Shown: positions 2,406 through 56,777 of the stretch, one piece after another | Position numbering within the stretch: position 1 is the first letter of the stretch | Layout: each line of letters begins with the position of its first letter | Source of the DNA: Ancylostoma caninum | Lineage: Eukaryota; Nematoda; Chromadorea; Rhabditida; Ancylostomatidae | DNA: 64,000 bases | Reading direction: 5' to 3' | NCBI GenBank assembly: GCA_037903475.1 | Contig: JBAJFG010000421.1 | Span: 1 to 64,000, forward strand | Program-made: the position numbers and the translations under genes | The notes under the pieces: model-generated | The model's database searches: none | Seen by the model: only the letters and a program-made list of their open reading frames with translations | What the model was told of the DNA's origin: nothing

Positions 2406-3500
2406 CTGAAAAAGTAACACTTGGGGCATAGCTTTTTTAAGTGCACTGTTTCAATTATTGTTCTCTATCCCATTGTAATTTTGAAACTCTTGTAAAATTT
2501 CTGTTTAGCTGCTCTTTTCAAAAGAAAAAAAAACTCAGAAGAAGATGCAGGATACATTTGAGAAGGTGCAGCAAATTTTCACCAGAATTGCTTCTGATGG
2601 AGCTTTTCCCAACTCCAACCATCCTCTTTTACTGCCAAGTTATAGGGATAGACATAAGATTTTGAAGATGAAAAGCTGGTTGTACCGTAGCATTTTTAGT
2701 AGTTTAGTCTTGTGCTATCAAATTGTTCGTTTGTGCGTAAAACTAAAACTCGGTGAACACTGTATTTTCAAGCCCACTACTGGAAGACCAGGTGGGTTAT
2801 GTCTGCATTTCCGTAAAATTAGAGCTGCTCTTTATGGAAAAGTTCAATTCCACCTCTTACCGCGGCGTTCGTTGGTTGCAGAAACTACTTAATGATGTAC
2901 TCCTAGCAACCAATTATGGCGTTTTTGTTGCCAGAATACGGAAAATTGGTCTTTTGGACGTTTTGAGGATACCAAACCAAATTCCTTTTTTTAGCTTGCA
3001 TTTAGTGTGGAGTACATAGCGCGCAAAGCGAGCATCAGTAGAATTCTGGAAGTCCGCCTGTAGCTGGACGGCCAGACTAGTTAATTATTTTCTACTTCCG
3101 AAATTTTTCTATCTTTTTACGGGAGGAAGAGAAGTTAGTCACTCGAATTGGGTACATTTATCCTCAACATTCCCCTCTGGATGCTTTTACCGTACTCTCC
3201 ATACTAGACAGAGCCAGAGACAGAGACAAGCCGTTAGTGTTGTCGGAAATTCTAGTTCATTGGAGCTCTAGAAAAGCGTCAGAATTTTCCCGTGAGTAGC
3301 TGATTGCCACTTACTAGCACAGATCCTAGAAAAATCTGCAGCCAAAATGCGTGGTTTCCTTTTGCAATCAGCGTTAATCTTTTTTTTTGCAATACTTAGG
3401 GTCTGTTGACGATTTCTCACTGAGGTGAATAACTATGTTTCAATAGTAATAGAGCGAAATTGGCAAACATATAAAGAACACAAAGAGATTTGTCCTTGAT
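2406..3500. other. No gene recognised
   Basis: An open frame at 2753-3019 (+, 88 codons) and an overlapping one at 2545-2892 have no recognised motif and no convincing splice sites. The stretch may hold the missing first exon or the promoter of the UNC-93-like gene, but nothing in it supports this directly. Confidence 0.3.
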
Positions 3501-3503
3501 CAT

Positions 3504-3530
3504 TAGGTTGGGGAAAAGTCAATTGCCGTT
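3504..3530. repeat. mariner-type terminal sequence
   Basis: Begins TTAGGTTGGGGAAAAGT, the usual start of mariner inverted repeats in nematodes and other animals. A weak inverted partner (TTTTCCAACCTAT, 4197-4209) lies about 700 bp away. No mariner transposase motif is seen between them. Confidence 0.5.
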
Positions 3531-3640
3531 CTAGGGTACGCACAAATAAACTTTTCCCTTCCATGGAATTTGAGCAATTTCAAGTGTGACTTTCTGAGAG
3601 ATCTTTTCTCCGTCTTTCAGAAGCCGCTTGAATATTCTGG

Positions 3641-3997
3641 CTAGCTCTTTTCAGTACCTTTTTGTATAGTCGCAAACAGATGATAAGCCGAAGCGATTCC
3701 CGGGTGATCGTAGTTAGTGACTTCAAACTCAATCACTCTGGACTGGAGGTATTCGATAATCTTGTATTTACTTTCGCTTGAATCGCCTTCCCAACGGCAA
3801 TGAGCTAGGGGTTTGCGAAATTCTCTTTCTACGTTTTTGAACTCAAATGTAACCATTCTCGTGGTTGCGGGATGTCGCTGGATGATCAGGCGTTGAGAGC
3901 AGCCTCGGAATCTAAACCGGATCTTACCCTCCTGATGATGAGAGCAGGGATGAACGCTCACTATACCACAGTTTCGAAACATTTGACTCGAACCCAA
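3641..3997 (-). CDS. Candidate exon, unrecognised protein
   Basis: A 118-codon open frame with balanced, protein-like composition, richer in charged and aromatic residues than the spurious frames nearby. It contains four Cys, a basic strand-like stretch (GKIRFRFRGCSQRLIIQ), FEFKNVEREF and a C-terminal VIEFEVTNYDHPG segment. It has no signal peptide or membrane helix. I do not recognise the family. It lies between two weak mariner-like ends and upstream of the UNC-93-like exons on the same strand. It could be an exon of a separate gene or of a repeat. Confidence 0.35.
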   Translation of the reverse strand: MGSSQMFRNCGIVSVHPCSHHQEGKIRFRFRGCSQRLIIQRHPATTRMVTFEFKNVEREFRKPLAHCRWEGDSSESKYKIIEYLQSRVIEFEVTNYDHPGIASAYHLFATIQKGTEKS

Positions 3998-5759: not shown

Positions 5760-7600
5760 ATCTGAATTTTGGCACCATCCTCAATGTCTCATAAAATGAC
5801 GTCTATCGTTAGGATCTGACCACGAATTGGTTCCTTGCAGTAGACCAACCCGTATGTGCTTGAAAATGTGCATGCCCTGACCACTGGTCAACAGAGCTAT
5901 GTGAGATTAGTTCGGCAGTGATCCTCTATGGGTGCTTCTGTCACCCTGGCTCCACCTATCGGCTCTATTTAAAAGGGAGGGATGCCTGTGATGGTTCTAT
6001 GAGTCTAGCTAGAAACGTTCGATTTCAACGCAGCTTATTGCTCCCTCGTAGATCGGAAATATTCCGGCTTGTTGCCGTGCAGCTAATCGTGCACATCACG
6101 CAAAATAAGTTTTGGAATTTTTTCTGTCTCGAGGAGGAGGATACTTTGAGGATCCCATGAATGCTAAAGATTCTCCAGGGTCCCTGGACTATTGCCGCGT
6201 GCGTGATGATTCATGCCGCCTTAGATTTATCAAAACATGGTGGTCGCAAACTTCAGAAAGATCTACGCGAGCTCCATCATAGTACTCACCACTTCGAAAA
6301 ATGTGGGAACAACTTCGCGGGAGGTGCATTCATCCACACTTCCTCAGCCTAGACTGTGCTCTACTGCGAGTCCGCCGAATTTCAGTTCGCAGTAGTGTGT
6401 TCGGCAAAACTTCTGTTTCAAACCCTTTCGTTTCAACTCGACGAAAACTTCCAATCATAATAGATAAGGCATTTACAACGCTCATGTGGTTCGCTACAAA
6501 GTGGTTCGAAACTCCAGATATCGGTGATAAACAAGGACACAAATGTTCTGCACCTCAAGTAACGCAACAAAAGCTCGCATTATTTTTGCATCCACCTAAC
6601 ATGTTGTACGGTACAAATCAACAATTAACGAGCGCGTAGGAGTTAATAACGTCGGAGAGAAATAACCTTTCCCAAAAACTGTATATGTTATATACATATC
6701 CCACGCATTCCGCATATTATTCGGAATCCCTTTTTTTTCCTTTTTCTTGTCATGCTGTCTAGGTACAAATGAGTGAATATAACCGCCCGTCTCTCCTCTC
6801 ATTTCACCGGCACATCAGAGAAATCGCTATAATTCAAGACTTTCTAAAGTGTCTTTCTCTATTTTCTCGGCCCTTACACCTGATTCGTCAAGGGGTTTTC
6901 ATTGTTTGTCAACTTTGTACCCAACTAAGCTTCATTCCTCCCTAACGGTCTGGCCAGACAAATGACATGATGGCCTTCATCTCCAAATATGCAATATGCT
7001 AATGAACGCAGAATATAATTTTTTTACTCTCGCATGTCATCCTTTGATTCGACAAGACTTACCCGTAGTAGCCAGCGAGGTGATTGATTACTTTCGGATG
7101 CCTCTCGCTAATGGATTGGATCACAGCCTCTTGTACAACGCACTGAAAGCGTATACGTACGCACATACGGAATCTCGTCAACAGAAAAATCTGTATTGAT
7201 TATTTCTCACATCGAGCACCGAAGTTTCAAACTTATATTATGTACTTGGTCTTCATGGAGCACCATTAGTTATATGTTATATGTTCCATGTCTGGGATGT
7301 GTTTTGTTTAAAACCAAGTAAACCTTCCTGTGAATTTGCTGTTATTAACAAGATCCGAGATCTGATCACCTGCGGATCGTAGCCGCCCATAATGCACATC
7401 TGTCCCAATCCCATGAGAAGGATGCAAAGCGATTCAAAGTTTGATGGCGACATGATAAGTGGCGAAAAGAAAGTAAAGGCCTTTATTCGTTTTAGGGTGT
7501 ACCCTGAAAATTGGATTATTTCCCAACTTCAGTGAAAAGAAATTCAGGCAACAACATGGAAAACAGCAGGCTATAGAAATTTCACGTTATTTCCTGGTAG
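5760..7600. other. No gene recognised
   Basis: Short frames only (for example 5918-6160, 6161-6352, 6301-6639). None has a recognisable domain or paired splice sites. Confidence 0.3.
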
Positions 7601-7611
7601 AACTATGTACA

Positions 7612-8080
7612 TACGATATGCAGTACTGCTCCTAATCTTTGGAAAAAGGACGCGCGCGACGCATTAATCCGTAGCAAAGCGTCTTCCTTGCGTAATTTTC
7701 TTAAAGAAAAAGGACACCCAAGTTTTCCTTGATAGATGGATTCTTTGTATTACAACGAATCGAACGGTTCATGTATTCTTCAATGTTGTTCTACACACCG
7801 GTCAAAAACATTACATACTACAAACGCAAGCAGTCCTCCTTGTTCATGACCACTTCAATCTACACTGATTAGATCACTACATTCTTAATGGTATTTATTT
7901 TCTGCAGTGTGAAAAGGTCGATGTTGAAAAGATTATATATGTTCAGTTGCAAAATTTGTCTTCTCAAGAAAATTTGGAATTGGTTAGTTTCTGGAAATGT
8001 TATGGATAAGCGACGCTTTGCGATGGTTTAATGCGTCGTGCGCGTTCTTTTTGCAAAGATTAGGAGCAGTATTGTATATA
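7612..8080. mobile_element. Foldback/MITE with ~75-bp inverted arms
   Basis: The left arm (7612-7690) and right arm (8004-8080) are inverted copies at roughly 80% identity. The shared core includes TACTGCTCCTAATCTTTG and GACGCATTAA, followed by AAAGCGTC. A weaker complementarity (TTTTCTTAAAG against TTTTCTTGAGAAG) continues inward. The interior has no coding potential. Target duplications were not identified. Confidence 0.75.
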
Positions 8081-8089
8081 CTAAGCTCT

Positions 8090-9900
8090 AAACGCGAAGA
8101 ATGAGCACGGCTCCATAAAGAATCATTTTCTTGAGGTGTAGAGTAGAAGTAAGAAAGAGAACACTGTGCCCCATGACATTTACGAGTGTTGTACTGATAA
8201 CTCATTCCAAGCTTGAAATACGAATTTTGTATTTCCTTCAGTTAATCGCCCGAAATTGGCAGTGTTCTAAATATGTAGCAGCTACTGCACATTTCGACTT
8301 GCGAGAAGAACTCTGTAATGTGCACTTGATAAATCTCGTAGAAAATTATACATATTCATGTTTGCCAGAGTTACGATAATGACATAACGTTTGAATATTC
8401 AAGAAATTCACTTAGAAGACGGAACCTCAGAGATTTTGAGAGAAATCGCCATTGGAAAAGTTGATAACCGACTGTGAGGGCTAACAATGTTGGCCGAGTG
8501 GGTGGTGGAGATGGACACAAAGCGATAGCAATATGTGGTTTCGAGTTTGCATTGAACTCATAGAGAACAACAACCATATTTTAAACTTTAGATAAGCGGG
8601 GAACAGCAATATTTCGTTTTCACGAAGGATGCACATGAGCTCGAAACAAAACACTGAGATTCAGAGCCCAATGTGAGAAAACCATACGACTTTTGCATGG
8701 AGATACACGTAAGAAAAACAAAACACTAGTGAACTAGCACACTTTCTGGGGCATTTCTCATTTTAAAAAACCCTACGAGCACCAGCATAGCCTTAACTAC
8801 ATATTCTCAATAGCTGGAGATATATTCGGTGTAAAACCTTTGCCAATTACCGGAGGGTAACCCACAAAGATTATTGTTAGAAACTACAATATTTCATTTT
8901 TGTTAGAAACTCAACATTTCATTGATGCTGTTTTGTCCACGTACTTTATCTTGGCCCCAGAAAAAGGCGCAAATTGCTATCTCATAGACGCATGAATCTG
9001 CTTAGAGTTTGCCACTTAAGCATAGTGTAAATGGTTACAGTTGTCCGTCCTAACATGCACAAGCTGTTCCTTTGTAGGTGTACGTTTTTTTCGCTACCAT
9101 TCTCGTAGAGGGTGGGTGCAAAATACGGTAACAATCCTCGTTTCTCGTCTGAAGAAAATTGTTTTGCCCTGAAGTTAGACTCAGTTGAGGCATCCTTTCG
9201 CAACGTTTTACCTTAACGGTACTCCAGCCCACAAGTCATGTTTGATCCAGTAAAATATATTTTAGGTCCTATTCGATTCATCTGGTGACCACACATTTGC
9301 TTGGGTCTCATTCAGCAGGGTTAGTAGGCAGCGGTGATACCTGAGACCAGGGCTTCTTTATAACCTTTCCGTGATTCGGATTAGTTGGGAAAGCACTCGA
9401 AAAAAACATTGGATAAGTTGAACCACAACCATTTGCACGCAGCCGCCAACGACTTCACCCAGCTTCTTGGGGCCTGTGTCGGTGCTGACAGGGATGTTCC
9501 GGTGTGAAGGGTTGCCTCATGTTAAATATTAAATATGAGCCAGTAGACATAAATCCTACAACTATGTTTCAAGTTACATATAAATTCTTTTTAGTGTAGT
9601 ACACCTTTCTGTGTTACCGTATTTATGACCCACTCTGTATATTGAACTGTAGTTAGGAAACTATGTACAATACATACATATTATACGATGTCTTAGTATT
9701 TTCTGAAGGGGCATGATTGTTTGCAAGAAGATTACGCTACCTTTTGCTCACTTTTCTGTCAGTGAGAGGCATACCGTGTTGTTTAAGTATATTTCATGCA
9801 CTCTACCCGAGACCACGGGACCATAGCGCCTCAAAATTTTAGATAGACCGCGATCTACTCGAAATTTTTAGGTCAATTTGTACTAGTCTCTCCACGATGT
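8090..9900. other. No gene recognised
   Basis: AT-rich sequence with short frames only; no family resemblance or clear exon found on either strand. Confidence 0.3.
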
Positions 9901-9903
9901 ATA

Positions 9904-9922
9904 TAATAAATAAATAAACAAA

Positions 9923-9957
<35 letters not shown>

Positions 9958-9959
9958 AT
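9904..9959. repeat. (AAAT)n microsatellite
   Basis: Thirteen or so near-perfect tetranucleotide units. Confidence 0.95.
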
Positions 9960-9984
9960 CCGACGCAAATATCTTGCGGACATA

Positions 9985-10150
9985 TACATTGGAGCACGTT
10001 TTCCTGTGGGATTTCCCATGAAGACCAGTCAAAGGGTCATGAACCTCTTCATGGAGAATGAGCGCCGGCGCCGTAAACGCGTGCGTCCGAGCTGCTCAGC
10101 GATGCGACCTGCCCCATCCATCATACATATGAATGCACGCAACACGAACC
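9985..10150 (+). repeat. Diverged interspersed repeat, copy 1
   Basis: Shares with 11735-11940 an ordered set of blocks: GACCAGTCAA, GGTCATGA or its variant, AAACGCGTGCGT, GAGCTGC and CGATGCGACC, then CGCAC-rich sequence. Between the blocks the copies differ by insertions. It is unrelated to any coding frame I can recognise. Confidence 0.6.
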
Positions 10151-10370
10151 CACGCAGCTAGTATCAATCGCTCTTTTATTGGACGATAGTTGCAGCACTT
10201 TCCAGGATGAGTTTTCGCTATTTGCGAAGGATATAGAATTTTTATGAGAGCTGCATCCAAATTTGCTTGGCAAAGGGCGCAGCGTCAATTGGCAGAACAA
10301 TACGTAAGGAGTTTCGGGATAGTTAGACTGCCTCTCTTGCACGTCAACGATCGAAAAGGCAAAAATGACG

Positions 10371-10819
10371 TTAATGTTCGATTTTCTTAGATATTATAGA
10401 AGAAGACAGCAGTTCATTCAAGATGCTCACAGCAATTCCTATTTTCGCTTTTGCTTCTATTACGGCCCTTTCCCTAATGAATCGCTGTTCAAATAGCTCA
10501 AACTGAGACGGCTTCCGTGGGGGCTTCATCAGAACAGTCGCGGAAGAGCGGTACTTGACATCTGAACAGTTTGACATCAAGTGGTCAGTCATGTTTTGCG
10601 TCGTCTAGTCTTTATCGCGTCTGTTATCGGTTCATGAGCATAAGACGATTCTACTGTCATGTGCGGTCTGCATACTAAAAAAAACTGAAGTCCACGTAGA
10701 CAAATCTGCGATTCGACGATCATTGAGCGCTGATAAACTCCCCTGTGGAAAGGAACTTGATGACAGCACTTCATGACAGGACGCCTCTTCGGCGAAATCA
10801 TTCGTATAACACTAAGCAA
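10371..10819 (-). other. Two overlapping open frames, uncertain coding
   Basis: Frames at 10589-10819 (76 codons) and 10371-10592 (73 codons) overlap by 4 bp in different phases. The second contains a helical, charged stretch (FELFEQRFIRERAVIEAKAK). No family is recognised and splice sites are unclear. They may be remnants of a repeat. Confidence 0.2.
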
Positions 10820-11734
10820 TAGTCAAGTGGAACGAATGCTGACCGATATCCATGCATGCCAGGAAGGTCAGACGAGGTCTGAATCTAATGAATTTGATAT
10901 TGGTGAGAACGGATGGATTCCGGCTGAACCACTCCCATAGAACAAACGTATCCAACTCTTAAGGTTACCTTAACATGATCATGCTGAAGGAAGTCAAAAC
11001 GATGAACGAGCTTGCTTCAGAGCTAAGCAGAAAGAGTGAAGTTCACCTACAAGCCTGTCCTAGTACTCAAGCTACTCAAGCACCATACTTAGAGCATGTT
11101 GAGGCCAACAATGCTCACACTACCTCTTCCGGAATTCTCCGTTAGCAGAGAGTTAGCTCCCAGTTAACGCTCACCGTTAGCTGCCAGTTTTAATAAATTT
11201 ACTACCAACTCTGGTTAGCTGTTTAAACGGTTACATTTAATATCTTATGTTACTGGTGTCCCTAATTTCTTAGTCCCCATAAGGCTCGTTCGAACGCATT
11301 CCTTTCCGATTTCGTCCTATGTATTTAGCGGGGAAGTATGCTCAGAGTGCGGTAATTAGATTTCCTAACCTGAGAACACCCAATTTTGGACTTGGTACGA
11401 GAACTATTTTCTAACAAAATAATCAAGAATTCTGTGGTTTCTGCCTGCTCCATTTCTGCAACATCTCATTGTATCTCAGCTAGCAACCGGCACTGCATTC
11501 TCCTTAATTTGATCGAGGACTGAGTGCAAGTAGCAACTCGACAATCTTGTTAGAAAAGTGTAGCTTTCATTTTCTTACCGTATAGGCAACTGCATGACGT
11601 AGTTATGAAAGCCTTACCTGCCCATAACCTCATTTAATATATCTTCTACGAATATCCTTATTAATTTTTTTACGTCGTCTGTACCCACTTTGAAACCTGC
11701 AGGGCAATTTATACTATTCAGACACACGCATCCA

Positions 11735-11960
11735 TTTGCAGAGGATTTTCCCCAAGGACCAGTCAATGAGTCATATATGTACATATATGACTATGTATAT
11801 GATATATGTACATCCTTAAGGAAAAAAGAACGGATTTGGCCTCCGTAAGGCCGCAAACGCGTGCGTTTGAGCTGCGTCAACGATGCGACCGGCCCAATCT
11901 CGAATCGTATAGACGCGCACGCGTCAAGCGCACGAATCTAGTATAAACTGGTCTATAAAC
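11735..11960 (+). repeat. Diverged interspersed repeat, copy 2
   Basis: Second copy of the 9985-10150 repeat. It carries an extra AT-rich insertion with inverted ATATGTACATATAT motifs at 11774-11812 between the GACCAGTCAA and AAACGCGTGCGT blocks. Confidence 0.6.
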
Positions 11961-14200
11961 ACACGCACGTCAAACGCGCCTAATATGTATAAATTGCCCT
12001 TATGTGCTAGACCTCTGCCATTATCGTTAGAAATCAAATGACTCCACAGGTAGAAGGTCCCCTGGCATGAAAACCCTGAAGCCACCTCATAGTGGGAGCC
12101 GGTAGAGCTCATAGAGTTTCTAGGAGTGATGAGTTCTTGAACTATCCGTACTGGCTACACTTCCATCATAAGATCATCCCTCCCCGATGAACATATCCTT
12201 CGACTAGCTTTATGGCATGTGAGGGTGTCTCACTGAAGTTAACGGCAAGGTCCCTTCAAAATGTCGTTTTTCCGATTTTCACTTCATTGGTCGCTCAGAG
12301 CGACGCCCTGGATGAAAACAATAGGAGAATTCTTGGGAAACTCCCACAACTCACGGTTTCTACCGACCAATTTTAGTACGGCGTATGCGGGTTTGCGGAG
12401 TACGTGCTTTCAGATGACTCCATACCGCGCGATTCACATGCTGTGTATTGGAGCGTCGTAGGACAAAATTCATACTGAAAACAGCACTGCTCCGTTCGAT
12501 GACGTGCGGTGTTTCCAGTATGTTTTCGTGAAACTGTTTGTCCATCGCTGCGCATTATGAATGCGCGCAGCCTTTGTTGGCTGGAGCACGTTTTCCCTTG
12601 GCTACAGCAATTCTCAAACGCTTGATTGCATATCTGGAGATAGAACTCACAGATAGCTCTCAAACTTGAATCGTGTGCCACACAGATGACATGGAGTCCA
12701 AAGAACAAAAAACTTGGATGGGCAAGGTTTTGGCCGGACCTTGTCTTCGAGGGGAATACTTGAAATAAAATTAACGGAAAATGTGTGCGGCAGTTGTGCT
12801 AGCTAAGACTACGACTAGTTCTTACGTCGTGGTAAAATCAAATACTCACTATTAGTAACAAACAACCTCTGCACATGTGCCTTTGCTTAGTTCCACCAAA
12901 ATTATTGAATCTCTACGCAATCTATAATATAAAGAACAAGCGCCTCTGAGTCTGAATCTACTGGACTGACTTAAAAAACGAATAAACAAAGTGCGCAGCT
13001 ACAAACCCCTACTTCAAGAAATTTCACCGTTTCCGCGAAGGTTCCCAGTGTTATGAAAGCAGTGCCACGGAATCAAACTCACAAATGATCATTTATGAAC
13101 GAGATCCTTTGACGCATTTCTACAAAAACAGTCTACTCACTCATTTCCCAGTGGACAGACGTCATACTCATTCGGGGGGGGGGGGGGGATGTCGTTACAC
13201 CTATAACATAGCCTACTCTTACTCTTTACGACGCTATTGAGGAAACAGTGAATGGTGGCGTCGAGAACTTTGGACCTGCACCAGTTCCCGGTGTGAAGGG
13301 AGTCGTTTGTTTCTGGGAATTTCTAGCTTACACTTCTTGCATTTCTGTAGAGTTGTTGCCAATAAACTACGTAGTGTAAGTGACGTAGGTGCAGTTCCTT
13401 GACTGCGCAAGTGCAGCCGTTCTTTCCGTGTCTTGGAGATTAGTTGGCTTCAGTTCATGGATAATGGAAAACTAGGTAGTTCCAATTATTTCGAGGTGAA
13501 CAGGTGCTCTGAAGTTTCCCTTCATTGGTTCTCGGACTAGAGTAGCCCAATGATGGACAGAGAGTTGGAACATCCTACTTAAGAAAAGCAGTTCAAGTCT
13601 TGATTCAACTCGAGCTCAGGGAATGAATGCAGAAAAGAATGGTGTCAAGAACACAGCAGTCAAACATCCTGGTGTTTTTACAATACCGGTTTCGAGGCTT
13701 GAACTAGACCGGAAGTGTTGCTCACCCAGGTCATGGACCCTTCATCAGTAGTTATATTCATTTGAGGTCACAATGAAAACCGAGCTACTGCTATCCTTCT
13801 TCTAAATATACTCCTGAACCGCTATAACGAATTCTGTTCTTCCTAGGATTTTTGCTGCATTGTGAAGATATAAGGAATATCTAAAAAGCTTTAAAAGTGT
13901 GAGAATTTTAATGGTTCTACAGGACTTTTGAGGATAGTACTTCATAAATTCAAATGATCCCATTAGAACAAAGCTAACGACATTTCCTGTATTTTTTTCT
14001 TGGAGTTTTTATAACTTAAGTAGACTAGAAGGAATTGCTCAGAAAGGAAAGAAACAGTGAGGAGAAATCTCCTAGCGAATTCCCTGCAGATGTCCTTGCT
14101 CATGTGCATAAGTTATTCCCATAAGTACTTTTTTCACGAGACATCAAAGTCAACGGGAATGGTAGTTTTTCCATAGTCTAGGTATTATAACTTATCAGTC
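11961..14200. other. No gene recognised
   Basis: Contains an unassigned minus frame at 12373-12708 (Cys-rich but without a known pattern) and a run of 15 G at 13174-13188. Nothing else is supportable. Confidence 0.3.
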
Positions 14201-14427
14201 ATTCTGGATTTAGGTGTCGGCCATTTGAGTAATAAAATTCATCCCAGTCAAAGAACATATCTAACACATAGGCTTCATCTTAAAAGCTGTACACTAATAA
14301 TCGATGAACCGTTAACCGGGGATGAGATGCAGATAAGCGAGATACACAGAAAAACAAGTGAAGAGGTAATTAAGGTACAAGAGAAAGGCGGTACTTCCGG
14401 TTCATTCACAACCGCCTCATGGAAAGG

Positions 14428-14712
14428 TCAACGCACTCCGACCTGTGCCTGCCCTGTGGGCTTTCCAGCGATGTTTTGCTTATTTGATAAAGGAAGGCGA
14501 AACAAGAGCACATGTCGTTCTGGCCCGTGGATCATGTAATGAACCCACCCCGGCGACTGCTGAATTCCTAGACTTCGCCACTCTGTCTCTGACATCAGAC
14601 GATTTTTCGGTATCAGCTTTGCCACCTCCTTTGTTACGTGGACATGTCTATATTCGTACTCATCGTCCTCGTATTTGTTAGGATAGTAAAAGTCGTTGGA
14701 ACCAGTAGTCAT
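14428..14712 (-). CDS. cks-1: CKS1-family cyclin-dependent kinase subunit, intronless retrocopy
   Basis: A complete 94-codon frame, normal in length for a nematode CKS-1. CKS proteins bind CDKs and use an anion pocket to dock phosphorylated substrates in cell-cycle control. The whole fold is present: [20 protein letters not shown], then [30 protein letters not shown], and HVLLFRLPL. Pocket residues equivalent to human Lys11, Arg20, Ser51 and Trp54 are kept (K13, R22, S53, W56), but the equivalent of Arg71 is Leu73 (codon CTT). The frame has no intron and is preceded at 5 nt by a near-perfect SL1 leader, so it is a reverse-transcribed copy of a mature trans-spliced mRNA. No poly(A) tract or target duplication could be found by eye. 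The open frame shows the copy is either young or still under selection; whether it is expressed is unknown. Confidence 0.93.
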
Positions 14713-14717
14713 AGCTT

Positions 14718-14739
14718 CTCAAAATTGGGTAATTAAACC
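14718..14739 (-). other. Genomic copy of the SL1 spliced leader (retrocopy 5' end)
   Basis: Read on the minus strand, these 22 bases match nematode SL1 at 21 positions, beginning GGTTTAATTACCCAA; the one difference is G to T at leader position 16. The leader is followed by a 5-nt untranslated segment and the CKS1 start codon. In a native gene the leader is never adjacent in DNA, because it is spliced on from a separate SL RNA. The arrangement therefore records reverse transcription of a full-length, capped-end mRNA. Confidence 0.93.
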
Positions 14740-16379
14740 ATTTCACGCTTCATGAGTAGAAAATTAATTATCCGAGGTTGTTTTGTTGTTGGCGCGGTGG
14801 AACATTGATGTGTGAATTTGATTCAATCTAGATTTCCCTCGTTCCTCTTCACTAATACTCTCTTAGCATATTTTCTCACCATTAACTTCAGCACAATCCC
14901 AACGGCGGCTTCTGTTCCCTGGCCAAACATCAGCTGTACAGTCTCATAACTGAGGTAAACCCTAGAATATTATTGTGGTTTTCCTAGCACAATATCGCTG
15001 GTTTTCAATCCTAGACAGTGCGGCTCCTTTTCCCATTTTTACTCTCTGAAGCGAAAATATTTCAAAATTTTGCTCAGAAAAAAAAAACAACATTTCCTCT
15101 GGGGAGCGTCTCAACTGTGAATAGAACGAAATCATTATGAAAGTGTTAAACATGAAGAAATTCAACATGATTTTGTTCCTCATCTCCAGACGTCTACTAG
15201 TCACAGGTCATATGACTGCTTCTTTTCGAAATTCACTCACTGGAAGTGGTATGACGACTAGTTTTTCGAACATTTTATGCAGAAACGTGGGCGAATAATC
15301 ACTGTTTTAGCTTTTTTGAAAACATGACGAGAGAAATTTCAGCAGTTTAAGCTCATGACTGGAAAGTTCTTCTTTGTAGAAAATATTCCATTAGCCAGCA
15401 GTACGAACCAATCTAATTTGCATACTAGCGGTGAATTACATTGTGGATACGCTTCAGATATAATTTACGCCAGCTATGTTCTTGCATAGCTCACATGACT
15501 ACTTAGGTTTCATAATTGTTTCCTACTATGTAGACCCTACTGTGCTTCGGTACGTAGACTAGTTGGTGAGAGTCGATCCGGGATGGTCTAATGTGGAATT
15601 TTGATGACGGATATCATGACAGGAAACTAGTGCACCGATATATTCTGTGCCCCTGAAGAAGAAAAAAAAAACTCTTATGTACGAGTGGCATGAAATCTCA
15701 TGCCCTCTATTTGAGAGTACATAGTTGACCTAAGGAATATGCTGTCAAATAGCCTTTCTTTGAAAAATTTTTCTTATCAAAAAACTGAGAAGCCGCGTTT
15801 TTCTTTCTTGAAGCCAAATAGACGCGTTTTCCTGGAAGTTTTTTTCTTTAATCAATGTTTTATAAGAGGGTGAGGGCATGGAGATCTCAAGACAACTCGT
15901 CCACTTCAGGATAACTCTGCCAACTTAATTTTTTTTGGGTACTCTAGAGGCAACCTGAACCCCTCGAGCGATCTTATCAACAGCAGCGTACTCTCCATAA
16001 AGACTGTGAACGAGCTGCACCACTCTGAGCTTGGATCGGGACAAAGGTCAAAAATTGTCGGAAGTGAAATTAATTTTGCCGGCTGGTACTCCTACGTATT
16101 TCGAGTGAGTAAAATCAATTTTTTTTGAAGATTGGAGGTACTCATATAGATAGAAAAGCCGTTTTGAATGCCTACAAACGCTTGACCCTTCATGAGAAGT
16201 GCGAGGGATTATTAACAAGCAGAAGAGCGAGAATTTATTTGATGACCCAATGCTTTGTAGAAGGTTTTCACACACTCGCAAAATGCCTAGGAACAAGAAA
16301 AAACCGCCCTCAAAATAGAAGTCTCTGCAGTTTTTTTTTGGCTCGATTGCTCGCTCGATCGCCTTCATATTGCAGAGAA
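14740..16379. other. No gene recognised
   Basis: Includes a minus frame at 14962-15204 with a hydrophobic N-terminal stretch but no other support. No upstream promoter for the CKS1 retrocopy can be recognised. Confidence 0.3.
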
Positions 16380-16946
16380 CCAGACGGCATACGCGGCTTC
16401 ACTCGGGTGTTTTGCTACCCTGGCTGAGAACAACTGCTATTGCCGATAAATTTATTAAAATGCCCATAATTCTGGTGATCAGCACATTAGTAAATCTCAA
16501 GTGACCTTTTCCCACCGACCCGTGAGCGCGAAGTCAGCAAAGTTATTTCGATGACACCGAATCGATGTGTTCGTGCGAAATAATCGTCATATTCATAATC
16601 AACGTATCGAGGAACCCCAGTAGACATCCCCTCACCACCCCATGATGTAGAAAAGCAAAAAATCAATCAAGTCGATGGATCGATATTTTTGTGCAAAACG
16701 GTTATCATATCCGTTTTCAGCGTAGAAACTCAAGTATGTAGACATGTTCCTACCGTCCCATGGGCAAATATAGCAAAAATTCAATAAAATCGATAATCTC
16801 AGGTGAAAAGTAGACAAGAGCCTCCGCCGTATATTGAAGGATAAGTATGCAAAATTTGGTCCCGATCGGTTCCTCCTCCGCGATTTCAATAGGTAACATA
16901 CAAACCAACGTACATACATACAGGCATTCACTTTTATATGCAGAGA
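16380..16946 (-). mobile_element. Non-autonomous Helitron, short copy
   Basis: On the minus strand the element begins TCTCTGCATATAAAAGTGAA after an A (16947) and ends with a CACCCGAGTGAAGCCGCGT hairpin followed by CTGG and then T (16379). TC at the 5' end, a 3' hairpin plus CTRR, and insertion between A and T are the Helitron hallmarks. The interior aligns along its length with the larger copy at 30721-31691, including the AAATTTGGTCCCGATCGGTT block. It has no Rep/helicase coding. Confidence 0.85.
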
Positions 16947-19900
16947 TTTCCATTACTCCCAGAAAAACATCAGAGAAAGAAAAAGGGAAAATTTTACAAT
17001 TCTGTCAGTAAAAATAATTAATTATTGAAAGGCAAGGCAGCTAAATGTAAGGAAGCCAAAAAGAAACACAACATCGAAGCAAAACGTGTTCAAAGTCAGT
17101 GATTCCCTTTGGAGACTGGTGTCGCTCACTGATTGATGTTGTGAGTATTTATTGAGGCAAAGCTCTTCATGAATTCTGTTGACAGCTGATATAGTGTCAG
17201 TTCAACAATTGTCTAGCATCGCATAAGTATTGTTAAGAAATGTCTGTAGATTCCGCTAATTTGCATCTCAACGGAGGAAAACACCATCGATTCATATGAT
17301 AAGCACTTGGTCCATTTGTTCGTTTCTAATTTTCTTTTGTTTAACTGTTTTCCACTGATGATGTCATGGCGGAAAGAAAGGGTGAACGAGGGACTAGCTG
17401 GAAACACGAGACATCTCTAAATACCAGAGTTCTTTGCGTAAAAAATGCTAAATTTCTAACCATAAAGATCTAATATACAGTCGCGGTCAAAAGTATTGCA
17501 ACAACTGGTTTTTCGAGTATAACTGTTTGAGGGATACTTCAATTCGTGCAATTCCAAATATATATTATGGCGTTAACGATCGAAAATTGCACGCCGTATT
17601 TCTTTCCTAAATAGGAAGAGCTAGAGCATTTTTACAAGCACAAAATTAATTTTCTCACGTACACTCAATTTCATGGTAGGTTCAAAACTATAGTTTATTG
17701 AACTTCTACGCGCAGAAACTATAAAGATAGATGAATAATGTTTCCTAACTGGTTTTCCATGCTATCATCAACCGTTCGATGGTCCATATTGTATTCATCC
17801 TCGTATCTCGTAATGGGCCCGGCGATGAGGGGCGGGACAGATCTGCCTTATGCTGGAAATGTTATGCACTGGTCAGAATGATGCTGTAAGCCATATTAGG
17901 CAATCATTATTCTCTTTCCTCACTTCGCTCACTCACATTTTGTACGCTGGAAAATTATTCCACTGAAGATTGACGTTTATTGAGCCTGAATGCCCACAAC
18001 TTATGCGAGCGTTAACTTCAAGCAAATACAAAATGCTTTTATTTGAAAATCCAATATGCAGTAGTCGTAGGACAATGGGGCTGGTACGTTTCATCCACTC
18101 AGATTTTCCTGTTAGTGCTCAGTTCTACCCCATGGATCTATTTCTCATTCAGAGACTGATTTTCATCCACTTGCATACTAAATAGTAGGCTGCCTCTAGA
18201 CAGACAGTACTCATTCGCTAATAAAAGTCACAGCTGGCAAAATCTGGAGTGTGCTGAACAGAAGATTCGAGATTCTTCACATTACTGGAATTAATCTGTA
18301 CTTACTTGACCAGGTCAGTCAAATACCTGGTGGAATTCTAATCCAAACCGTTTCATAGCGCCGAAAAGAGAGATTTTTAAACGCTAGGGAAAGGTAGGCG
18401 AGGCGTATGCGGACTCTTTATTCCATTGATAAAAACCAACCGAAAGCAGGGCATCTTCTCTGCGTTTTGGGGTCTGATGTGGTGGCGGAATAGAAAAGTT
18501 CGCGAGTGCGCTTTCGTTGATTTATTTCTAGAGATACATTGTAAATATGTACAAGCCAACAACTTCAGAAGAGCGCCGGTACTAGACATTTCTGATTGTG
18601 CAGGCAACGAAAACACACTCAACTATCAAAGTACTTCCAGAGCGTGAATTTTTTCAATAGACTTATAAATCTATTTGAATGGCGCGTAGTGGTCCGGCTC
18701 TTTTATTTTCCTTCTTGTGATCACAGAGCTTGTGGAAAATTTACTCCGTCTATTACCATAACTTCATGGGCGGTCTGAGCCCTGAATGTTGCTGATTTGG
18801 GGAACGTTGAAGTCGGTCGCATGACAGGTATAGGATACCAGAACATTTTTTTCTCTTCTCATCTTCCAAGAAACTTCTCAGCGGTAAAATGTGTGAGTCA
18901 AACCCTTTCTCGTTCCTTATTCGAGCTTATGTCTTTAGAATTTGCTCTGAAATCCATTGAATCCTCCCTCACAGATAAATTGTAAACTGGCCGAGATCAC
19001 GAGGTCGCTTCGCGGTTCATACTTCGTCAACGCTGAAGTATACTGTAGTAAATTAACCTATATCGTAATGAGCATGAACTATGCATTGTTCCGGAGTCGA
19101 GGAAAAAAAGCTTAGACGAATTTTCATTCTCTTAACGTAGAGAGGAAGAGATAGCGCTAACATGCCGCATGATTATGTCTAACGTAGAATTTTGTTTAAT
19201 AGTAATAATGATGTACGCATTGCTGGGCGCCAACGATTAGTAATTGCAATTCTATTGGCTCTAATGATCCATTAATGAAATCTAAACCTAATCCCATGAA
19301 ATACATGTAGCTAAGCTTCTACTATAATCCGAAACAACTTTATTTGCTGCCATTTAAAGCTTCTCGGACCATCAAAGACGTCAATACGGTTTTAGCTCAT
19401 TTCGCTTCTAGAAAAATCTAGAAAGGAAAAAAGTGTAGAAAACGCTATTAAAGAATATTTAACGGGGTAAATGCATGATGTTGGTGTTCCACACCATATT
19501 CTTAACGTACTTTCAATTTGTTTTTTAGTTTGACGTATCACCCTCATGTCACGTCGTTTCTGAAAAAATTGAATAAGATTAGTTCTCATACTACTGTAGA
19601 CCAATAAATTGTGACGAAAGAAGAAAAATATTTAATTTGTTGCCGGTTCGAAGATGAGGAAAAAGCAAAACTACGGCTAATACAGTTACCTTGTGGTAAA
19701 GTCAGTCCACTGAATCGGTCATTGCGAGAAAGTCCTTCATTAAGGAGGGAGTGCCCAGCACGTCAAGCCAGATGTGTATGAATGACTCCCGGGGGGGGGG
19801 GGGGCTTTCTACTGTCTCCGCATTGTTTCATCCATGTTTCTTCTAAATTCACTGCTTTCAACTCCATGAACTTTTTGAACTACATATTTCCCATAAGCCT

Positions 19901-20072
19901 TCCATTGGCCGTGAACTTGCCCTCACCTCACCATTACCTCGATTTTCATTGCGACATGGTTTGCTCTATGTATCCTGCACTATGGCGGTTGTAATCTCAG
20001 GGTGCACCACCATGGTAACAGAAAACAGTAATGAAATCAGGTAGAGTACAAATGAACTCCATTGATGGATGT
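16947..20072. other. No gene recognised; Tc1-type end at 17478-17560 and poly-G at 19791-19804
   Basis: Short frames on both strands at 18377-18647 are mutually exclusive shadows without known motifs. Aside from the simple and transposon remnants named here, nothing is supportable. Confidence 0.3.
17478..17560. repeat. Tc1-type transposon end
   Basis: ACAGTCGCGGTCAAAAGT followed by ATTGCAACA is the classical start of Tc1-like inverted repeats. A TA precedes it. No matching opposite end or transposase was found nearby. Confidence 0.65.
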
Positions 20073-20609
20073 TATAGGGGTATCAAAAAGTTTCCGGCCC
20101 TCGTTCTATTCCATCCCTTTTTCCTCAGAACTCCAAGTGCAGTAGTGTAGCCTGAAGTCCTTAAAGCCACCATGCCAAGTTCCATATTTTCAAGCTGACT
20201 CGTTCAAAAACGATGGCGCTTTTTTCTAGCCTAACCGCAGTGTATTTCACATGTTTTTCGACAGCGCACCCCTCCACAGATTAAGGATTGCGGTTGCTGC
20301 CACACTGGAATGCGGATTTGAATAGGCGAATCACACATCCTATAGTCCGGCCCTGGCTTCCAGCAACTGCTATCCGCCGGGAAATGTGGAATAACATCTT
20401 CGAGCAATGAGATTCAGGATCGAAAATGAGCTCAAGTCGGCTTTTGGAATATGCTCTGCCTCATGCGATAAAAAGCGCTACTTTTAAGGAATTGAAATTG
20501 AGCTAAGAAAAGTGCGTGAGTGTTTCAGGGACCTATATTTTATGCGAAATTTTGTGGCTGTAGAGATTTTGGAAGTAGTCTAGGACGGAAACTTTTTGAT
20601 ACCCCTATA
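20073..20609. mobile_element. Tc1/mariner-type MITE with perfect 24-bp inverted ends
   Basis: TATAGGGGTATCAAAAAGTT at the left is repeated exactly in inverse at the right, extending to 24 bp. The TA at both outer edges fits a TA target duplication. The 490-bp interior contains no long frame or transposase motif, so it is non-autonomous. Confidence 0.88.
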
Positions 20610-21674
20610 CTAGTCCTCTGAAATTCCATCTGGAATGAAAACAGAATAAGCTTTTGTTAATCGCATCTAGCCCGATCGCCAACTCAAGCCCTCCAAAAAT
20701 TTGATAACTTAAACAATTTTTACGAATTAGTTATGAGGTTGTCTCATTAATGGCGCCACATTTGCTTGTTATCGTCTTTAATCCTAGTTCACGTTGCGGC
20801 ATGCTTGCCTTCTCCAGAATCTGGAAGGATGAAGAAGCGCTTGTTGTGGGCGTTTGTCTAAATGTGATTCACAGCAGGAATGTCTTCCTACCCTGATTAG
20901 ATGAGTGTTCTTTACAGCCGTACGTCGCACTTGATTCCTTGGACAAATAGATAATAGCGGCGACTGCGAGCTGAATCAAGGCAGTAAATGACTAAAAGCA
21001 CCCTTAATTACGTATAATATTCCTGCAAGATTGAGAACCACTCTCTACAGTTCATCTCTAGATCCTTTTCATAGAATAGAGTCACAATGCATCCAGGGCT
21101 TGCATGCCGCAATTCGAAACTTTAGCGTTGGGAGAGTTATCCTAATTCATAGTCATTTTGAGGTGGTTCATTGGGAAATCGTAGACTTGTAATGTCATGA
21201 ATGGATTTTTGTGGATACTCAGAAATTTTGGCTAGAAAGCTGCATGAAATTCCCTGACCAACACATTAGTTCGGCATTTTCCTATCCTTTCATTGCTCGC
21301 ATTATAACATGTCTTTTCTGGTATGTTGTTTCTTCTACAAGTTTGACAACATTACTCGTTCCAAAGAAAGATCTACCTCTTGCATAGCTTGAACTGGGCG
21401 TGTATAATCGTGAGCGAAAACGGGGCGTGGTACAGTTATGCGATTGGTTCGTTCAATCCTCCTCCCGCCCCAAACGGTTGACTCGTTCTCTTCGCGCGCG
21501 ATTCCACTATACATGACAATGCTAGATTTGAATGCGATAGAGGACGAATTAATCGTGGAGGGCGGAAAGTCTCCGCCTCCTTTCCCCCACGATGATACAA
21601 ATCCGCTTAAACCCGCAATCCCTCTCCTCTTTCAGCTAATTATGTCAATAACAAGTGATGCCACTTAGTTACAG
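20610..21674. other. No gene recognised
   Basis: Only a 76-codon frame at 21438-21668 without known motifs. Confidence 0.3.
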
Positions 21675-21826
21675 AGAACTTCAAACGGACGCAGACAAGG
21701 GTCAAGACCGCGGCGCGGCTCTCTTGGGCAGAGTCACGGGAGCTCAGCATAGTGTGCGCCTGCGTCTCTGCCCAAGAGAGCCGCGCCGCGGTTTCGACTC
21801 CTGTCTACGTACGTTTGGAGTTTCCT
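21675..21826. repeat. GC-rich hairpin repeat, copy 1
   Basis: A 27-bp perfect inverted pair (21707-21733 and 21766-21792; core ACCGCGGCGCGGCTCTC) encloses a 32-bp loop, and weaker pairing extends the arms to roughly 58 bp. The G+C content is far above the surroundings. A second copy lies at 44480-44625 with the same loop motif GAGCTCAGCATA. Confidence 0.88.
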
Positions 21827-21829
21827 ATA

Positions 21830-23430
21830 CCTGTTCTTGCTATTCTCTGCTCAAACACCAAGGGAATGGTGCCTTCAGGTATCCGAACGACGTTCACGCC
21901 CCGGCTGGGTACGCATGGGAATTATGACCATTTCCCTAGGTGGTACTCGTTCTTATCCACAGCTCGAAAGTAATGTACATTACAAACGTGATTCAAATCA
22001 CACCTTAGTTATTTGGGTCATGATAAGCGACAGGATAAGATTTGAGCAGGTCATTTAGATTTCAGCATCACAGAGGGGTCTTTTTGTAGATGTTCCCTGT
22101 GAGCACTCTTCCGGGCTCTCACTTTTGCAGGCATGTTGTCAATGACAATAGCATAATAATCTAACGGTAATGTTGTTATACTACCATTCTTCGGTTCAGC
22201 TGATTTTGATCAAGCAACCTTGAGTGCATATCAATAAGTAAATAAATGTTAGTGAGCAGATCTCTAATCCACCTGGTTTTGAAACCTCGAATTTTGCGTC
22301 GCCCTCGAAAAGTGATTGTAAAATTTACGGCCATGAAAGAAGATATTTAATTCGGTTTACCTCGTGATTACGTGTCTTTCGTTCTGTACCGCTAGCGGCA
22401 ATAGTTCCCTTTTATTATAATACTTTGTGTTAATGAGTGCTCGAATATTTTATTATCCTCAAGTGCAATATCATTGCTATGATCGCTAATAAAGTGTTGT
22501 GTCTCGGCGCCGCCCATGTCTCAGATGAATGCGTGGTACGTGGTATGCGTGGATGAGTGTCTAGCAGTTATGTGGCACTGGTTCATCACCCTCTGTATTC
22601 CTTGTCTAAAACCAATAACGATGGAGAAAGAAAGCGTTTCTAGCAAAGATTCAGCAGCTTCCTTTTCCATTTGAAAAGCGTGCTGCACTTTGCTTAGTGA
22701 AGAGAGTGTCGACTGACTTTGTTTTGAGAGACTCTCGCTATGCATTGAACTCTCTATATTAGGTCCCCGATTCTCCGCCATGCTCTTCTTCAATTCTTGC
22801 ATACTACGTTGATTCATTCCTCTCTTGATTCCTTTTTGAAGTGTGCTACTAAGTACCTTAATTCCTGCTGTTATGCTCATGGAAGTACCCAAACACGGCA
22901 CGAAATTGGGTGGTTTGGTTGCCACTGTCGACACACTACACGTCTTTCCCCCAATTTCTCATATATGTATGTATGTGCTGGCATATCTTTCGTTTTATAA
23001 GCCCTCAACTTTGCATGGTTAACCGGAGTTTCATGTGAACAATTTTAAGCAGTTACTCCTCCGTTCACTGTTCCTGCTCCCCAGATGTTGATCCCCTCCA
23101 GTAGTAGGCTTTATATTTTCAGAAAAAAGGCAGAGTTAATTCTGCCCATGAGGTAATCGTTTAAAGTCCTCAAGAAGATAGAGGGGTTCCGTGACTTCAG
23201 AAACGCGGCGGAGCCTAAGCGATGGATGTGGGACAGCTACTACTAAGGGAGTCGAGTAGGTTTCGACGCGATTCTGGGGCCGCAAAGTATAAAACCTCAC
23301 CTGCAGTCCGTCTATCTTTTCGTTATGTACTGTGCTTAGCTACGCTACATTTTTGTCACATCCTTCCTCTTCCGCTCACGTTGCATATCTCAGCTCTTCA
23401 CATTGTGCTCTTAAACCGATGCAAAGTGTA
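21830..23430. other. Region upstream of srsx-like gene 1
   Basis: Apart from the minus-strand frame at 22521-22934, annotated separately, no gene or known repeat is recognised here. Confidence 0.3.
22521..22934 (-). CDS. Candidate coding frame, unrecognised Ser-rich helical protein
   Basis: A 137-codon open frame with a TAGIKVLSSTLQKGIKRGMN helix-like stretch and a Ser/Gln/Glu-rich centre (ESLSKQSQSTLSSLSKVQ). There is no signal peptide or recognised domain. A possible acceptor (TCGACAG) lies at the beginning. It sits head-to-head with srsx-like gene 1. It could be a small gene, an exon or a chance frame. Confidence 0.3.
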   Translation of the reverse strand: MSTVATKPPNFVPCLGTSMSITAGIKVLSSTLQKGIKRGMNQRSMQELKKSMAENRGPNIESSMHSESLSKQSQSTLSSLSKVQHAFQMEKEAAESLLETLSFSIVIGFRQGIQRVMNQCHITARHSSTHTTYHAFI

Positions 23431-23437
23431 TTTTCAG
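23431..23437 (+). promoter_or_regulatory. Likely trans-splice acceptor of srsx-like gene 1
   Basis: TTTTCAG, the nematode 3' splice consensus, stands 7 nt before the start codon at 23445 with no upstream exon required, as expected for spliced-leader addition. Confidence 0.6.
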
Positions 23438-23551
23438 ATTTGAAATGTCTCCTCGGATAATTCCAACGCCATATGAAGTGTTTTATTTCATTATTCCAAC
23501 AATAAGTATTATAGGCAATTCACTAATAATATATGTAACAATCCGATCTAA
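23438..23551 (+). CDS. srsx-like chemoreceptor 1, exon 1 (TM1)
   Basis: From the ATG at 23445 it encodes MSPRIIPTPYEVFYFIIPTI followed by SIIGNSLIIYVTIRS. This is the first transmembrane helix of a serpentine receptor, with the I-I-G-N motif of TM1 and the basic end of the first cytoplasmic loop. The donor AA|GTAAGT leaves two bases that join G of exon 2 to make Lys. Srsx receptors are 7-TM G-protein-coupled receptors, mostly expressed in chemosensory neurons. The same exon exists in receptor 2 at 56643-56752 with matching phase. Confidence 0.85.
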
Positions 23552-24191
23552 GTAAGTAACATTAAAAATATTGGGTCGTCTTGCATGAAATGTCAGATTT
23601 TGAATGAGGGGATTTTTAGACTTCATCTTCAAACAAGATGCGGTAAACAGTCCAAATGTGGCTATACACAGCCGGCACAGCACTAACACCTTAGCAGTAG
23701 CTTGGCTGCGCCAACAGTTTAGAAGCATGGAAAGTAAGCAGCAATAAAGTGGTGAAGGGCGTTCTCAACTTTATGATGGAAATTGAATATTTTTCTAAGA
23801 GGTGAGATAATCCCCGGAAAGTGTTGGGATTAAGTAGGTGCTGAAGACAACGCTGAAGAATTCCCATCCCTGTTCTACTCGCCTGAGCAACATCTTTTCG
23901 GGAACGGTCGGCTAGAATTGACACTCATCTTTGATGGCCAAACTGTGGAAAATTTGTTTATCGCGTCTCTTTACCTTGTTGTATCGCCTCCTCAATATTA
24001 ATGAGACATCAATCCTCAATGTTAATGAGAGATAAACTTCTAATCTTGCTGCTTTGGTAATGCTGTTTTGACACCTGTCCGCTCCAGCCACGGCTTTCAG
24101 CTTATCGTTTACCGGGTTCATCTCAGCGCTCACTCCCTAGGTCTACATCAACGAGAAGAACATAGGAGTAGTTTTGAAACAGGGAGGATGC

Positions 24192-24225
24192 ATTAGGTTG
24201 GTGCAAAAATAACGCGCGTTTTTCC
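24192..24225. repeat. mariner-type terminal sequence in intron 1
   Basis: Starts TTAGGTTGGTGCAAAAAT, the mariner inverted-repeat consensus. It lies in the first intron of srsx-like gene 1. No opposite end was found. Confidence 0.6.
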
Positions 24226-24669
24226 TTGCATCATTTTTGGTACAGGAAAAGTACGGCTCCGGTTTTCCTCACCACTTGAATGAGAACTTGTATAAAACTT
24301 TGTAGCAAATTTTATGGCCTTCTCAGCCGGCTTCTCTGTCTTGGTCCGGCTTTACATCTTTTCAAATTTTTACTTCCGAAACGAAAGATGCTAGGACAGA
24401 ATGTCTGTCAAATTCACTTCTGTGAACTAAAATTTCAGCTTTATCACGAAGAGTAAGATGAGAAGTAATCCACTCAAACTTCTAAGAAACCGACTGTCGA
24501 AGTGCACTTGAAAAATTCGACATTTCATACGTGACGACCTAACAGATTTGATCACATTGACGCTTTCATAAGAGATATCCGTGTTGTAATTCATGTGGTC
24601 GTGGTGTTGTTTATCGTAGTGCTCACTGTGCAGAAACACTCTATCTTGACCTATTTGAAAATAGTTTAG

Positions 24670-24768
24670 GCGTCTGCGCAGTGCTTGCAACATTTTCATC
24701 GGATTGATATCAGCTGGAGATGTTCTGCATATGTTTTCTCACTACGTCATGGTAATATCGCATGATGT
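24670..24768 (+). CDS. srsx-like chemoreceptor 1, exon 2 (TM2)
   Basis: Acceptor TTTAG ends at 24669. The exon encodes RLRSACNIFIGLISAGDVLH, then MFSHYVMVISHDV. The L-R-S-x-C-N-I motif at the start of TM2 with Asp inside the helix is diagnostic of srsx/rhodopsin-like nematode receptors. The donor GT|GTAAGT leaves two bases, completed by C of exon 3 to give Val. It is 99 nt long, identical in length and phase to exon 2 of receptor 2. Confidence 0.87.
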
Positions 24769-25707
24769 GTAAGTTTTGCAAAGTAGTACTCTACCAGAAG
24801 CATGAGAATTTCTGCGAAACTTCCTTGCAAGGTGAACAGACGAACTTACGCTCTCAATCCAGGACGGCATCTACATGAGCAGAATTGCTAGTTGATCTTC
24901 AGAAGCTCAGAATTCAAAAACTTGGGGATTTCCGAATTTATTTTATTTCCACGTACTTACTGACAGAGTGCATGTATTTGTTCCTCAGCAATGAATGGGC
25001 TAAGTTACCTGTTTACAAATTTATTAGATTAGGTTGCTACAACCTCTTCCTGCTCTCCGTATGGGTTTTCTGCTCGGGTAAAATCTAGGAAATCGCGGGC
25101 TTACTAGCCGCATTGGGGCCCACTGCTCATGCTGAAAACAAAAATGGATCCACTAGCACCGCTTACATACTAATGAAGCTATGATGCTCACCACAAATAC
25201 TGAGTGTCATGTATATACATAGATACACAACACTCATTAATGATGTGATGCGTCATTACATCATAACACCGTCACCGTAGTACATCTTTCGATTTGTGCA
25301 CAGTCTTGTTTGCACATTTTGATGTAATGTAATGGAACATTGAGCTGACCTAAGTGAGGCGGTTACTATGTGTCTGTAGCAAGCATAAAGCTGACATTCG
25401 ATTCAGTCATATGCAATATGATATGTTCACATATCTATTCATTCACAAAAAAAATTAACAACTCTATGGTGTCTTTCTTTAGCTTTCACAGTCGAGTTTT
25501 CCAAGGGGTGTCGTACTTACCGTGGAGTTAATCGGGTTCCGTGCGCGGTTCCATAGCACTGTGGATGCAGAATCGCGGCAGGATCTACTCGACCATCTCA
25601 TTTGGAGATTGCTCTTACCGATACTCCAGTTCAGGTCCCGCCGCGGTCCTGTCTCCGTCTATCTTCTTGGGAAGGACTAGGTTCCAACTCTCAAGCTCCA
25701 ATTTCAG

Positions 25708-25839
25708 CAGCGACGACCACCTGCTACGACATGATATCTGCGTCTACTGGCAACTTCTTCCTCTCTTTGGAGTTTTCTTCTCATCAATGTTGCTACTGAA
25801 TGTTGCTGTGGACAGATTGCTCTCTTTGACAAGCATATA
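25708..25839 (+). CDS. srsx-like chemoreceptor 1, exon 3 (TM3)
   Basis: Acceptor AATTTCAG ends at 25707 and the phase fits exon 2. It encodes an extracellular Asp/His-rich segment, then WQLLPLFGVFFSSMLLLNVA and VDRLLSLTSI. This is TM3 followed by D-R-L, the srsx counterpart of the GPCR DRY motif. The donor ATATA|GTAGGT leaves TA, so the next exon must start with T or C to avoid a stop. Confidence 0.85.
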
Positions 25840-26370: not shown

Positions 26371-26654
26371 TGGCAATATTCACAAGCATTTAGAACTGAC
26401 CCAGCAAATCGACATTACGATCAAGATGCCTGCACTCACGTTAATGTTTTAGATAACGACACCATGAAGAACATCTATCGTTCTCTGATTATTATCAGCA
26501 TCACGACAATATTTGGCTGGTTTAGCACCATGCTTATCGTATCTGTTGCCCAAATTATGCGAGTGCAGATTGATAGAATATATGTGAATTTGTTGGCCGG
26601 ACTTTTTGTTAACTTTGCTTGTGCCACAAACTTTTTTGTATACTACGGAGTAAG
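26371..26654 (+). CDS. srsx-like chemoreceptor 1, exon 5 (TM6-TM7)
   Basis: The frame is open from 26371 after TTTCAGTTAG. A hydrophilic third cytoplasmic loop ends in NDTMKNIYRSL, followed by TM6 (IIISITTIFGWFSTMLIVSV), a short loop, and TM7 (LLAGLFVNFACATNFFVYY). GWF in TM6 and N-F-F-V-Y-Y in TM7, equivalent to NPxxY, are typical of srsx. The donor AG|GTAAGC is canonical. The exact 5' edge is uncertain, because acceptance at the CAG would put a stop at the second codon. Confidence 0.85.
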
Positions 26655-26709
26655 GTAAGCCTAATGTTACCGCACCGAAAAGCCCAAATTGAACCTATGA
26701 CAATTTCAG

Positions 26710-56752: not shown

Positions 56753-56777
56753 GTAAGTAACAGTTAGCTTATTCACA

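Follow-up and report, generated by a model that had tools for sequence, protein, structure and literature searches.

The 64,000-nucleotide stretch of DNA analysed here (the window, C64:1-64000) contains on its minus strand a CKS1 coding frame preceded by a copy of the nematode spliced leader SL1. The leader (14718-14739) agrees with SL1 at 21 of 22 positions, the exception being G16T, and is separated from the ATG at 14712 by the 5-nt spacer AAGCT (14713-14717). The frame that follows (14712-14428) is intronless and comprises 94 codons and a stop codon with no internal stops. It was assigned to the CKS family (Pfam PF01111, 120.6 bits), with 96% identity to a Necator americanus CKS protein, and is closely similar to the CKS proteins of strongylid nematodes. 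The leader lying 5 nt before the start codon and the intact intronless frame are thus as the preliminary description of this DNA had reported. The extent given there, 14428-14739, fits the frame and the leader and falls short at the left edge, since homology to the parental 3′UTR reaches 14227. The probability of the SL1 match is about 7e-12 per position under the composition of the window. A search allowing up to three mismatches gave this site only within the 64 kb, and 0 of 100 shuffled sequences were matched. A second SL1-like site at 29717, with five mismatches and no long frame behind it, was attributed to chance, and none of six SL2-type leaders matched the window with fewer than six mismatches. 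No GT donor follows the window SL1, AAGCTATG being found there instead, and no SL RNA gene or body was detected at this position, with no Rfam family reaching its gathering score across the whole window. The SL1 pattern gave no matches in a viral contig collection. Searches for CKS relatives gave 42 and 7 word matches in collections of genome contigs and viral contigs, respectively, none of which was confirmed in collections that may lack near relatives of the source genome.

A CKS search of the source assembly (347,937,819 bases in 638 contigs) revealed six matches: the copy in the window, three exon matches on contig C252 and two overlapping matches on contig C164. The matches on C252 (91%, 93% and 89% identity) correspond to a parental cks-1 locus at C252:177998-178383. 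Within the extracted region L007 (C252:174500-181500) the parental exons lie at 3494-3582, 3641-3712, 3765-3878 and from 3960 onward, separated by three introns of 58, 52 and 81 nt, all GT..AG, located after K28, Q52 and Q90. An intron-containing parent, for which a search of the same assembly had been proposed, is therefore present. Before it was known, the gene-model breaks of relatives, as read, had suggested introns after K28 and Q90, where the copy carries the exon-junction motifs AAG/G and CAG/G. The two matches on C164 (624483-624755) represent a third, distant CKS-like locus, with 44% and 60% identity and a stop in each match.

Alignment of the copy with SL1 joined to the spliced parent extended over 514 nt, of which 501 were identical and 13 substituted, with no insertions or deletions, and the three parental introns were precisely missing. 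The differences were distributed as 1/22 in SL1, 0/5 in the 5′UTR, 6/285 in the coding sequence and 6/202 in the 3′UTR, the last base of the 202-nt 3′UTR alignment being an A possibly derived from the target-site duplication. The parental 3′UTR in the copy accordingly spans about 201 nt (14227-14427), ending ...TTTTATTACTC. The trans-splice acceptor 5′ of the parental start codon consists of TTTGTTTGTAG joined to AAGCTATG, while in the copy SL1 is joined to AAGCTATG, and the AAGCT spacer is the same as the first five exon bases after TTTGTAG in the parent. The leader of the copy therefore stands exactly at the parental acceptor which, together with the removal of the introns, points to a mature SL1 trans-spliced mRNA as the template. 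From this comparison of sequences, the window locus is almost certainly a processed retrocopy of a trans-spliced cks-1 mRNA, and the parental cks-1 is predicted from its acceptor and from the copy to be trans-spliced to SL1. The exact acceptor junction, the absence of introns and the parent located elsewhere bear out the origin put forward in the preliminary description. The accompanying statement that the copy is complete to its 5′ end holds for nucleotides 3-22 of SL1; nucleotides 1-2 are compatible with it only, as their GG is also the final dinucleotide of the duplicated target site.

The hexamer AAATGG closes the 5′ flank of the copy (14743-14738, minus strand) and opens its 3′ flank (14226-14221), giving a target-site duplication in which the GG of the 5′ copy forms the first two bases of SL1. 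Of 42168 random end pairs, 101 shared six bases or more. When the two flanks were joined and used as a query, one unbroken match (96%) appeared besides the two halves in the window, at C64:114066-114156 and oriented the other way. The empty site within this region (L097, C64:113700-114500) reads GTGAAATGGCC and contains one AAATGG. The flanks align to it over 398 nt at 88.7% and 391 nt at 92.1%, with the junction at the hexamer. It is a paralogous stretch of the same contig and need not be an allele. As the flanks have diverged by 8-11%, compared to 2.5% (13/514) between copy and parent, the insertion is probably younger than the regional duplication. At the 3′ end of the copy no poly(A) longer than three A was found, and this AAA at the join may equally be a remnant of the tail or part of the duplication. 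No AATAAA is present within 1500 nt past the stop codon of the copy and, with no long poly(A) either, we infer the natural end of the mRNA. A TATAAA poly(A) signal with A7 at 13992-13998 was dropped because it lies past the end of homology at 14227, and GAAATG (25 of 17700 sites) was discarded as the 3′ end because parental homology stops at that same position.

The copy is situated in the interval (7454-23444) between an UNC-93-like gene and an Srsx-type chemoreceptor gene. The UNC-93-like piece (matches 7453-1694, minus strand) gave 75% to Ancylostoma duodenale Aduo_011194, 71% to A. ceylanicum and 48% to the best Necator match. The chemoreceptor piece (matches 23445-26860) gave 92% to A. 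duodenale Aduo_011193, 84% to A. ceylanicum and 65% to the best Necator match. To judge by these two proteins, the source is probably an Ancylostoma or a closely related hookworm. As the two A. duodenale genes are numbered consecutively, the annotation of that species probably has no gene in between. Elsewhere in the window, on the plus strand, are a reverse transcriptase remnant (RVT_1) at 106-1466 and a separate GIY-YIG-like remnant at 53456-53848, both weak and below the Pfam cut-off, which possibly derive from Penelope-like elements. A second Srsx-type receptor gene has exons at 56643-56753 and 59532-59648 of the same strand, the former sharing 97% identity with a receptor of Necator americanus.

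On this reading the parental pre-mRNA was trans-spliced to SL1 and its three introns were removed, and the resulting message, the copied part of which stops after TTATTACTC, was reverse transcribed and inserted into the intergenic stretch with a 6-bp target-site duplication; the products of these steps are seen in the sequence. The proposed mechanism of insertion is target-primed reverse transcription by LINE-type machinery. The nicked strand would read 5′-CCATTT/CACGC, in which TTT may have acted as a primer on the poly(A) tail, and at the other end the cDNA terminus may have annealed to the GG. The two junctions would then lie within overlaps (AAA and GG), which would explain the lack of both a poly(A) tail and extra bases. 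The nick position is T-rich and accompanied by the 6-bp duplication, and the poly(A) is absent or hidden in the AAA. Repair of a break with free cDNA, or the action of an LTR-element integrase, is a less likely route that we nevertheless take seriously: a duplication of 6 bp is short for a LINE-type insertion and fits a filled-in staggered break or an integrase as well, and no poly(A) tail extends past the three A. Integrases generate duplications of 4-6 bp. The T-rich nick position, however, fits a poly(A) primer, and no LTR was noticed at the ends of the copy by inspection. Compared with the processed pseudogenes formed by mammalian LINE-1, which are intronless and have target-site duplications and a T-rich nick, the cks-1 copy has a shorter duplication and hardly any poly(A), and carries a leader at its 5′ end.

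The copy differs from its parent by three amino-acid changes (S11P, R73L and P76S) and three synonymous changes. The comparison of dN and dS with the parent, as had been suggested, gave an NG86 ratio of 0.29 from these few changes (three nonsynonymous and three synonymous), which by itself could suggest constraint; three nonsynonymous changes out of six are, however, no different from the neutral expectation (P 0.14-0.29 for kappa from 1 to 10), and part of the synonymous changes may have arisen in the parent, which is under constraint. Six substitutions without selection would leave the frame free of stops with a probability of 0.72-0.77, and the coding sequence has diverged no more slowly than SL1 and the UTRs (6/285 against 7/229, Fisher P 0.58), so that function cannot be argued from the open frame. 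Near-invariant sites are hit by two of the three amino-acid replacements. Position 73 is R in 104 of 113 homologues, the other nine being misaligned or odd isoforms, none with an intact FR-x-PL, and position 11 is S in 102 of 111 homologues and P in 0 of 111. R73 aligns with R71 of human CKS1, which we take to be an anion-pocket residue; a literature search gave no supporting paper for this role. Relative to Necator, no residue from 6 to 75 is changed in four strongylid orthologues, whose tails carry 24 changes, against 2 and 2 in the copy (Fisher 0.016). Residue 5, at which all four orthologues differ, and C. briggsae, with two core changes, are excluded from this count; the four orthologues are not independent, and one tail difference of the copy, T86, is inherited from the parent. 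A functional retrogene, transcribed into a message for a CKS protein that is under selection and possibly modified by Arg73Leu, is thus very improbable on these sequences even with all 94 codons open, and the suggestion in the preliminary description that the locus may be a retrogene finds no support where an open frame is expected without selection, coding and non-coding parts are equally diverged and Arg73 is lost. The copy has most likely changed without detectable constraint and would be silent, dormant or dead with its frame still open, and weak constraint may be compatible with only six coding changes. Contamination by cDNA or an assembly chimera, to which the single assembly available as a source for the locus might lend itself, can practically be dismissed in view of the 13 substitutions relative to the parent, the target-site duplication and the matching empty site elsewhere.

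The distribution of SL1 was examined across the whole assembly. SL1 with up to two mismatches was found at 1026 sites, 504 forward and 522 reverse, and the reversed SL1 pattern used as a control at none. A 23-base pattern consisting of SL1 and a next base of A, C or T gave, with one mismatch tolerated, 491 sites, a count that includes exact SL1 followed by G. The sample consisted of 88 loci covering 99 of the 100 sites listed out of 1026, and represents the head of a contig-ordered list, not a random selection. It contained 75 exact SL1 sites distinct over 67 nt, with identical repeats collapsed, and 97 distinct over 500 nt. The bases following SL1 at these 75 sites were GTAC at 26, another GT at 19 and no GT at 30. 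Resemblance to another sampled site over at least 40 nt was observed for 59 of the 75; one family with inverted copies accounted for 17 sites and another for 8, and a CGCGTGGC-type motif was present at 20. Members of the 17-site family (L016, L022, L031, L036 and similar loci) have SL1 followed by GTACTCAAACGCATTGCG or GTACTGCC... in a palindrome-like arrangement, with two SL1 copies about 215 bases apart and inverted copies about 600-1000 bases away. At L056:301-406 a tRNA-Gly(GCC) lies 10 nt on from SL1 on the opposite strand, and no tRNA was found at the other 19 sites with the CGCGTGGC-type motif; this motif may be the same antisense tRNA remnant, making it part of an SL1-containing tRNA-derived repeat. 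SL RNA genes were rejected as the source of the SL1 sites after 20 loci gave no Rfam match at gathering score. A permissive Rfam threshold applied to nine loci gave 24 matches, of which only the tRNA of L056 reached the gathering score. At L070:466-2121, SL1 lies about 140 nt 5′ of a stop-to-stop frame of 552 codons, presumably a BEL/Pao-like gag, which matches DUF1759 and, weakly, aspartyl protease. SL-tagged retrocopies had been described as an unambiguous marker of RNA-mediated duplication. This applies to the junction of SL1 with the start of an exon and not to SL1 itself, given its abundance and the many look-alikes in the sample.

With regard to the proposed scan for SL1 upstream of open reading frames, five of the 75 sampled sites precede cDNA of host genes, four genes in all. 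L065 contains a 375-codon open frame for ARP1 starting 48 nt after SL1, which matched Arp1 in the PDB from residue 2 with 635 bits. An inverted partial SL1 (AATTGGGTAATTAAACC) lies 8 nt upstream of the SL1 of this locus (L065:276-322), as if the end of the cDNA had folded back. L047 encodes methionine aminopeptidase 1 (181 bits), the matched pieces starting about 440 nt after SL1, and the reading from an ATG 2 nt after SL1 is presumably the N-terminus of this protein. The Pfam match of L011 itself is below cut-off (21.6 bits), and the locus aligns to L047 at 92.9% over 1222 nt with shared flanks, so that the two are a single event that was duplicated afterwards. L012 matches ATP synthase epsilon from the third codon after SL1 (26 bits, one stop), and L058 matches cyclin C (32 bits) in a stretch of 38 residues some 250 nt past SL1. 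The frames of L047, L011, L012 and L058 are broken. The window copy and the sampled sites together represent five independent events, with parent and intron loss known for the window copy alone, and the ARP1 copy of L065 is the first candidate for a retrogene that is trans-spliced again.

DinoSL-tagged retrogenes with relict spliced leaders were reportedly described in dinoflagellates by Slamovits and Keeling in 2008. Passages of two papers report such spliced-leader-tagged retrogenes with relict leaders in this group (PMC6050394, PMC12014239), and as far as these passages go the cases are alike in that the leader fossil at the 5′ end marks the RNA origin of the copy. The present case differs from them in concerning an animal and nematode SL1, and in combining for one copy the parent, the exact acceptor junction, the target-site duplication and the empty site. 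RNA-based duplicates are also found in Caenorhabditis, where retro-transcription of trans-spliced transcripts is raised as a possibility and a poly(A) tail is named as a feature of recently formed retrocopies; neither “SL1” nor “spliced leader” occurs in the main text of that paper (PMC3532220). The parasitic nematode Trichinella pseudospiralis likewise has an intronless copy of a housekeeping gene, an expressed thymidylate synthase retrogene, with “spliced leader” and “trans-splic” absent from the text available (PMC4022200). No SL1 fossil at a nematode retrocopy was found among the open-access matches listed and their passages, which is no proof of novelty.

The usual recognition of retrocopies by missing introns works poorly for genes that are short or have few introns, and gives no information on where the mRNA began. 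A junction of SL1 with the start of an exon, by comparison, is proof that the template was a mature mRNA and shows where its 5′ end lay. We consider it plausible, though short of probable, that SL1-tagged cDNA insertion is a recurrent and datable process in this hookworm lineage, that trans-spliced mRNAs account as fossils for dozens of the 1026 SL1 copies and that some of these may receive a leader anew and persist as retrogenes, like those of dinoflagellates; such renewed trans-splicing is conceivable because SL1 ends in TTTGAG. With the parent, the acceptor, the target-site duplication and the empty site in hand for one event, direct counts could address how often and by what mechanism retroposition occurs in animals with trans-splicing, and whether SL fossils are reused as splice sites.
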